A DNA stretch of 64,000 bases from the NCBI GenBank assembly GCA_028343615.1, contig JAOLZA010000005.1, positions 1-64,000 on the forward strand. Reading direction: 5' to 3'. The translations under genes and the position numbers were made by a program. The stretch is from Verrucomicrobiota bacterium. GTDB taxonomy: Bacteria; Verrucomicrobiota; Verrucomicrobiia; Limisphaerales; UBA1100. The notes beneath the pieces are model-generated. The model was given only the letters and a program-made list of their open reading frames with translations. It was not told where the DNA came from and ran no database searches. Positions 57,335-59,140 of the stretch are shown piece after piece. The stretch's first letter is position 1; each line of letters opens with the position of its first letter.

Positions 57335-57634
57335 ATGACCGAAACTATGTTGGCATTTATTCAGGGCTCGGAATGGCTGATCATCGGCCTTGCCGTGTTG
57401 TTATTGTTTGGGGCGAAAAAGCTCCCGGAACTTGCGCGCGGCCTTGGCAAAGGCATCCGCGAATTCAAGAAGGCCTCTAGTGATATTGGCGGCGAACTGA
57501 ACCGTGTTGATGAAGATGACTACGATCGGCCGCGCCGTCGGGAACGCCCCATTGAGGATCGGCAGGAAAAAGCCGCTCACGCCGAAGTTGAGGATGACAA
57601 GCCCGCGAAGGCTGAATCCGATTCGAAGGCTTAG
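57335..57634 (+). CDS. tatA: Sec-independent translocase TatA/TatE
   Basis: [35 protein letters not shown]. Confidence 0.92.
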
Positions 57635-57649
57635 TTTCCCACTTCCATT

Positions 57650-59140
57650 ATGGCTAAGGAGCCCGAGGATAAGCATGGGGCTTCTGATTCCGGAGGCGAT
57701 AAAACGCCCGCTGAAAGCAATCCCCCTCAAGACGATTCATCTGCCACGTCGCCTGAACAAGGCACGGAGCAGAGCGAATTGCCTTTGGGCGATGAACCCA
57801 AGGAGGCTGGCTCCAAGGCCGAATTTCCTAAATCAGAATTCCCGAAAGCCGATTTTACTGAAACTGAGGCAGTGCCGGATGATGCTGAAGCTGCCCGCGA
57901 CGATCAAGCGCAAGATCAAACGCATCACGAAGATCCCCATCATGCCGGTGAGATGGGTTCTGGCCACGATGATCCCTATCACGATGAGTATTCACACGAT
58001 TACGAAGATGAATATCACCAGGAACATCACGATGACTTTCACGAACACGACCACGGCGAATACGCACACGACCACGGCGAATACGAATACGCCGATGGTG
58101 ATAATTATGGCGGCGATGATGGCGACGAAGGCTTTGGCGGTCCCATAAAACCGTTCCTCGATCATCTCGAAGATTTTCGTTTTATGGTGATGAAATGCGT
58201 GGTCGCCGTGGTGGCCGGCATGATGATCGCTCTCATCGGCTCACCGTACATTGTGAAATTTCTTACGTGGCCTCTTGAGCGCGCGCAGCTCATTGAGCAG
58301 GTGAATACCAACCCTGACAAACGTGCCGTGCCCGTGAAATTTGGCAGTGGCGTGGTGTCTCACATTCGTGAGTCTGATTTAAAAAATATGGCTGAGGCCG
58401 GTAATCTTGCAGGCTCATTTACTAACACTGCCGAGATTAGTGCTCTCCGGCTGGTACCCTCCGATCAGCTGGGTACCAATGGCACCCGCTACAACCTCCA
58501 ACTTGAGGTGGATAACAATAGCTCCAATTCGGAGCCGTGGCACGTGCAGCTGAAAGCATTTGGCCCGCTCAAATCATTTTTCATAGCTCTCAAGATTGGT
58601 CTCTATGGCGGCATCACGATTGCCATTCCCTTCATTTTAATTTTTGTTGCACAATTTGTTTTGCCTGCCCTTCATGTTAAGGAAAAGAAATGGGTCTTTC
58701 GCTTGGCTGGAATGGGCTCGGTGCTGTTTATGCTGGGCGGAGCTTTCTGCTATTTAGTGATTATGCAGGTAGCCCTGTGGGCATCGGTGGGCTTCGCCGG
58801 TATGCTCGGCTTTGGTGCGGACGAATGGATGGCCGAGGAATACATCGGCTTCGTGTGCAAATTTATGGTGGGGATGGGGCTCGCTTTTGAAATGCCGATG
58901 ATCCTGCTCTTCCTTGTGAAAATTGGGGTTCTGAATTACGAAAAACTTTCGAGTCTCCGGATGTACGCCGTGGTGGCCAATATCATCCTTGCCGCTGTCA
59001 TCACCCCTACAGGTGATCCTGTGACGCTTGCGCTCGTGGCTGTTCCGATGCAGTTGCTCTATGAAATGAGCACCATCATCGCTTGGTTTATGGGGCGAAA
59101 ACAGGCCCGTGAAGAAGCCGCTTTTGACGACGAAGAATAG
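57650..59140 (+). CDS. tatC: TatC translocase subunit with 162-aa His/Asp/Glu-rich N-terminal extension
   Basis: PFLDHLEDFRFMVMKCVVAVVAG...GLYGGITIAIPFILIFVAQFVLPAL...ITPTGDPVTLALVAVPMQLLYEMS; extension DPYHDEYSHDYEDEYHQEHHDDFHEHDHGEYAHDHGEYEY. Confidence 0.9.
   Translation: MAKEPEDKHGASDSGGDKTPAESNPPQDDSSATSPEQGTEQSELPLGDEPKEAGSKAEFPKSEFPKADFTETEAVPDDAEAARDDQAQDQTHHEDPHHAGEMGSGHDDPYHDEYSHDYEDEYHQEHHDDFHEHDHGEYAHDHGEYEYADGDNYGGDDGDEGFGGPIKPFLDHLEDFRFMVMKCVVAVVAGMMIALIGSPYIVKFLTWPLERAQLIEQVNTNPDKRAVPVKFGSGVVSHIRESDLKNMAEAGNLAGSFTNTAEISALRLVPSDQLGTNGTRYNLQLEVDNNSSNSEPWHVQLKAFGPLKSFFIALKIGLYGGITIAIPFILIFVAQFVLPALHVKEKKWVFRLAGMGSVLFMLGGAFCYLVIMQVALWASVGFAGMLGFGADEWMAEEYIGFVCKFMVGMGLAFEMPMILLFLVKIGVLNYEKLSSLRMYAVVANIILAAVITPTGDPVTLALVAVPMQLLYEMSTIIAWFMGRKQAREEAAFDDEE
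58045..58086 (+). repeat. 21-bp tandem duplication (HDHGEYA) in the tatC extension
   Basis: ACACGACCACGGCGAATACG(C/A) repeated twice head to tail. Confidence 0.85.

Follow-up and report, generated by a model that had tools for sequence, protein, structure and literature searches.

What does a 162-residue extension do at the N-terminus of TatC, a protein whose known forms make do with far less? The gene that raises this question lies near the end of the 64,000-nucleotide stretch of DNA analysed here (the window), on a contig of a Verrucomicrobiota bacterium. It encodes 496 aa, and its open reading frame starts 15 bases downstream of tatA (Table 1). Residues 1-162 lie upstream of the conserved GGPIKPFLDHLEDFRF, the first codon of which is at 58136. 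A preliminary description had placed these 162 codons before the core and directly after tatA, and both its coordinates and the sequence it quoted proved correct.

Table 1. Features of the tatAC locus, in positions of the window.
Feature	Position	Strand	Evidence or remark
tatA	57335..57634	+	99 aa; PF02416, E 2.5e-18
tatC with N-terminal arm	57650..59140	+	PF00902, E 2.2e-50, residues 171-466
N-terminal arm, residues 1-162	57650..58135	+	net charge -43; predicted disordered; genus dN/dS 0.23
MAKEPED start	57650..57670	+	common to short-tailed TatCs of other families
QSELPL motif (Q-x-[ED]-L-P-[LF])	57770..57787	+	conserved in families f1 and f8; QTELF in f50
EFPKSEFPKADF, repeated FP motif	57821..57856	+	conserved within the family's genera g1 and g5 (alignments)
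His/Tyr/Asp module with DPYHDEY, residues 92-147	57923..58090	+	His, Tyr and Asp rank among the arm's best-kept positions
Tandem duplication of 21 bp, with a gain of seven residues (AHDHGEY type)	58041..58091	+	TRF
TatC core	58136..59140	+	PF00902
Loop-1 periplasmic insert, about 80 aa, partly beta-strand	58313..58561 (approximate limits)	+	AlphaFold2 strands within residues 226-302

Start codon and core of TatC

The start assigned to the gene is sound, because the open frame (501 aa) has a stop only five codons 5' of the ATG and because the MAxEPE start is common to long and short relatives, those with a short N-terminus opening MAxEPE...EEEGGPVKxFLEH. A wrong start codon or a frame error is ruled out by these two observations together with the low dN/dS of the arm and its recurrence in several genomes that were assembled separately (those relatives with a named record are MAGs). 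The arm contains one internal ATG, Met102, which is Leu in congeners. Translation from an internal codon near 58136, the possibility on which the preliminary description would have fallen, is argued against by the close 5' stop, the unconserved Met102, and the shared MAxEPE. Judged by sequence, the long arms resemble insertions flanked on both sides by conserved ends.

The remainder of the protein is TatC. The score against PF00902 was 171.8 bits (cut-off 25.1). The NCBIfam equivalog TIGR00945 scored 129.7 bits, short of its cut-off of 132.7, with a match covering residues 298-471 only; this match leaves out the first helix as well as the loop insert, and Pfam and structure both assign the protein to TatC. 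AlphaFold2, supplied with 72 relatives, returned a confident TatC core, and Foldseek matched it to 4b4a as a TatC-like fold (E 1.2e-9; TM 0.88 by target length), the nearest solved structures being the TatC proteins of A. aeolicus, N. salsuginis, E. coli and M. xanthus. The partner gene adjoins: in a genome that is 59% complete, this tatA was the single TatA/B-family gene found and this tatC the single TatC copy. With the TatC cores of the four species named, the protein has in common the fold, the pairing with tatA and the conserved residues. The long disordered acidic N-terminal arm is absent from those known proteins; M. xanthus and N. salsuginis TatC have inserts in periplasmic loops instead (PMC13323110). 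An insert in periplasmic loop 1 was also present, judging by long match spans, in nearly all TatCs of the order, and was missing in L006 and L023.

Composition, distribution and history of the arm

No entry in Pfam, NCBIfam or the PDB matched the arm, which rules out a known domain within it. AlphaFold2 predicted no secondary structure for residues 1-160 (pLDDT about 45-57, with the same 72 relatives), and the predicted picture is of a disordered, acidic segment with hydrophobic motifs. The His-rich stretch of the preliminary description, which counted about 15 His, was located at residues 92-147; the whole arm has 16, many in HH or HxH and neighboured by Asp or Glu. In its densest part, 11 His fall within 40 residues among other potential metal ligands, as in tails of the HypB or SlyD type. 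The DPYHDEY pattern occurs once in the window genome, inside tatC. A general His-rich module reused by other proteins was rejected, since the DPYHxEY-type DNA pattern matched only tatC within the window's family; its one match elsewhere, in G030 of family f12, is away from tatC. The QxELP[LF] motif resembles a relaxed sliding-clamp motif.

Every member of the window's family with an available tatC start has an arm, its length ranging over 130-196 aa. In the order as a whole, 15 of the inspected families had arms of 126-210 aa, and the rest had N-termini of 13-40 aa. The His-rich tails that the preliminary description proposed to look for in other TatCs do exist, in nine families (f1, f2, f3, f8, f26, f30, f37, f48 and f50), and the first part of its alternative outcome, a tail absent from all relatives, is excluded by the recurrence of arms in the 15. 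Six families have a long arm without the His module: arms in f12, f13, part of f16 and f46 are acidic with 0-3 His, and those of f5 and one f7 genome have 7 scattered His. Every long arm whose start is secure is acidic, with or without His, at a net charge of -10 to -66 and mostly -20 or lower; the arm of L079 is at +4, but its N-terminus could not be aligned to those of neighbouring sequences and may reflect a frame error. Outside the order, such an arm was seen in none of the 18 TatC genes of the phylum that were read (long open frames from a draw of 145 genomes, in which the other TatCs were judged by frame length only). We found no published work on a His-rich N-terminal TatC extension in the open-access literature. 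The arm is an order-specific variant of TatC and not a new kind of system.

Other departures from the plain TatC form were noted in passing. In three members of family f2 (L067, L070 and L135), the part of the arm that precedes the His module has an insert of Lys/Ala-rich KKKAAKKK repeats. In family f32 (L012, L072, L073 and L074), the N-terminus is short and the C-terminus continues as a charged tail, very roughly 150-270 aa long, that ends in DRNPDIPL or similar. In L095 of family f52, the short N-terminus includes HYHSHSHSHSHP, where His may have been gained separately.

Estimates of dN/dS from four genera or families with several genomes were 0.17-0.25 for the arm and 0.06-0.11 for the core; the arm values are approximate, as alignment of low-complexity sequence is uncertain, and all are far below 1. 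At the invariant His columns, relatives often use different, synonymous codons. Conservation of Tyr and Asp is close to that of His, and all three exceed most other arm residues. An arm of 126-210 aa that recurs in 15 families with dN/dS well below 1 is beyond chance: as read from these sequences, it is kept by purifying selection and is not an accident. In a quick tree built from 91 cores, one clade (SH-aLRT 97) took in 46 rows, including most long arms; f3/f30 and f37, which have the same DPYHxxY-type module, fell outside it. The state of the arm requires 7-8 changes on this tree, which is compatible both with ancient presence followed by losses and with repeated gain or transfer.

Such turnover is among the arguments for a plainer account, in which the arm is a loosely constrained, low-complexity tail or spacer that arose by repeat slippage and mainly keeps the surroundings of the translocase open; its composition and length alone would matter, with no specific ligand. 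The 21-bp tandem duplication in the His module, present in the window organism only and missing in five congeners, shows that slippage adds arm length. Length and composition of the arm also differ widely between families, and f32 has its long charged tail at the C-terminus instead. A nearly neutral spacer fits less well with the low dN/dS, with short motifs conserved at fixed places, and with a DPYHxxY-type His module that recurs in families distant on the tree. We regard the spacer as possible, if somewhat unlikely; together with a metal-first reading, it is a serious rival to the capture arm proposed below.

Metal binding and other candidate functions

The preliminary description took the extension for a metal-binding appendage on the translocase. 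What stands of this is a real, conserved and translated extension in which His is well kept; what fell is His as a general property, since several families have the long arm nearly without it. In its stronger form, the proposal is that the arm chiefly binds Zn, Ni, Cu or Co, buffering or sensing the metal at the translocase and adjusting export. The number and spacing of the His, their acidic neighbours, and the synonymous codon changes at invariant His columns all argue in its favour, as does a precedent: HypB-type proteins are conserved proteins with a His-rich, low-complexity N-terminal tail that binds several metal ions, and 9 Ni are bound by the HypB of B. japonicum, which has 24 His (PMC7055735). 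HypB differs in being a GTPase of hydrogenase maturation, whereas the TatC arm sits on a translocase, is also rich in Tyr and Asp, and belongs to a family in which no hydrogenase was found (PF00374, [NiFe] hydrogenase, matched in 0 of 20 genomes). Nickel delivery to hydrogenase was rejected on that result. Against metal as the main function stand the long acidic arms of f12, f13, part of f16 and f46, almost devoid of His, the few His of f5 and the f7 genome, and the similar conservation of Tyr and Asp; nor did any obvious metal gene adjoin tatAC within the stretch read. Tat substrates fold and acquire their cofactors before reaching TatC, which also counts against a general metal function of the arm. 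On balance, we consider a chiefly metal-binding arm rather doubtful.

Tethering of a specific cytoplasmic partner through QxELPL or QTELF, for example the DNA sliding clamp with its Q-phi-x-[LM]-(x)-[FL] ligands, appears very improbable: the relaxed motif occurs in 19 of 46 long arms, in three families (0.54 expected from shuffles), and clamp-binding forms such as QLSLPL (Hda) and QTSMAF (Pol III epsilon) are known (PMC4703070, PMC11139829), but the canonical aliphatic position 2 is Ser, Thr, Gly, Glu or Pro in most arms, the motif is missing from most other families, and a membrane-held clamp has no biological rationale. The arm in the window, with QSELPL, was accordingly rejected as a ligand of the form Q-phi-x-[LM]-x-[FL]; elsewhere, L039 has a full fit (QLPLSF) and L082 a marginal one (QADLPL). 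The arm was also tried as a substitute for a missing TatB and rejected, as single-TatA genomes occur with and without it and the contrasts were not significant.

A proposed acidic arm for twin-arginine precursors

Predicted disorder and negative charge, rather than histidine, are what most long arms have in common. Twin-arginine signal peptides dock on the cytoplasmic face of TatC, and by the topology of known TatC the arm probably lies on that same side. The reading we tentatively prefer is that TatC uses this acidic arm to capture Tat precursors, with the His/Tyr module as a metal- or pH-responsive addition. As part of TatC itself, the arm would capture and retain precursors: its negative charge would draw in the basic region around the twin arginines, while weak contacts close to the docking site of the signal peptide may come from conserved short motifs of hydrophobic-acidic type (QxELPL, FPxxxFP). 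Most lineages have the His/Tyr module, a variable addition that could make the arm responsive to metal or pH.

We favour the capture arm on these grounds: the arm is under purifying selection, predicted disorder and acidity are general to long arms, separate proteins provide analogues, and the presence of the arm shows a suggestive association with the number of Tat signals. Among the analogues, E. coli SlyD is an acidic protein whose C-terminal domain binds nickel, and it binds the signal peptides of Tat substrates via their positive charge, with Arg preferred; unlike the arm, it is a soluble prolyl isomerase and its peptide binding sits in a folded domain (PMC11198818). In chloroplasts, acidic and hydrophobic motifs in disordered regions of STT1 and STT2 bind the twin-arginine peptide and deliver it to the translocase (PMC8740050). 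The likeness is one of working only: these are separate ankyrin proteins outside TatC and not homologous to it, with precursor binding established for them and only inferred for the arm.

TAT_signal matches stood at 5.9 per Mb in long-arm families and 2.8 in the others (35 family-level groups, p 0.0005). A larger count, in which up to 29 scored candidates per genome were compared by family medians, gave at least 22 per genome with long arms and at least 14 without (p 0.01). Only 4-6 independent contrasts were available, none significant, and the association is therefore not phylogenetically independent and suggestive only. Several short-arm families (f9, f35, f36 and f52) are also rich in Tat signals, which counts against the capture arm, as do related families that manage with a 15-residue N-terminus and the Lys-rich insert of f2, which reduces the negative charge of the arm to a net of about -10 in the two genomes measured.

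To our knowledge, the route by which folded precursors reach the bacterial Tat translocase is poorly understood. The full proposal, in which a Tat translocase has its own disordered targeting factor, an acidic arm responsive to metal or pH on which twin-arginine precursors collect at TatC, is unlikely as a whole. If true, this translocase would do internally what separate targeting factors do in chloroplasts, and if the His/Tyr module binds metal, export would be directly coupled to metal status. The presence and absence of the arm between related families of this order is a natural experiment on precursor capture.
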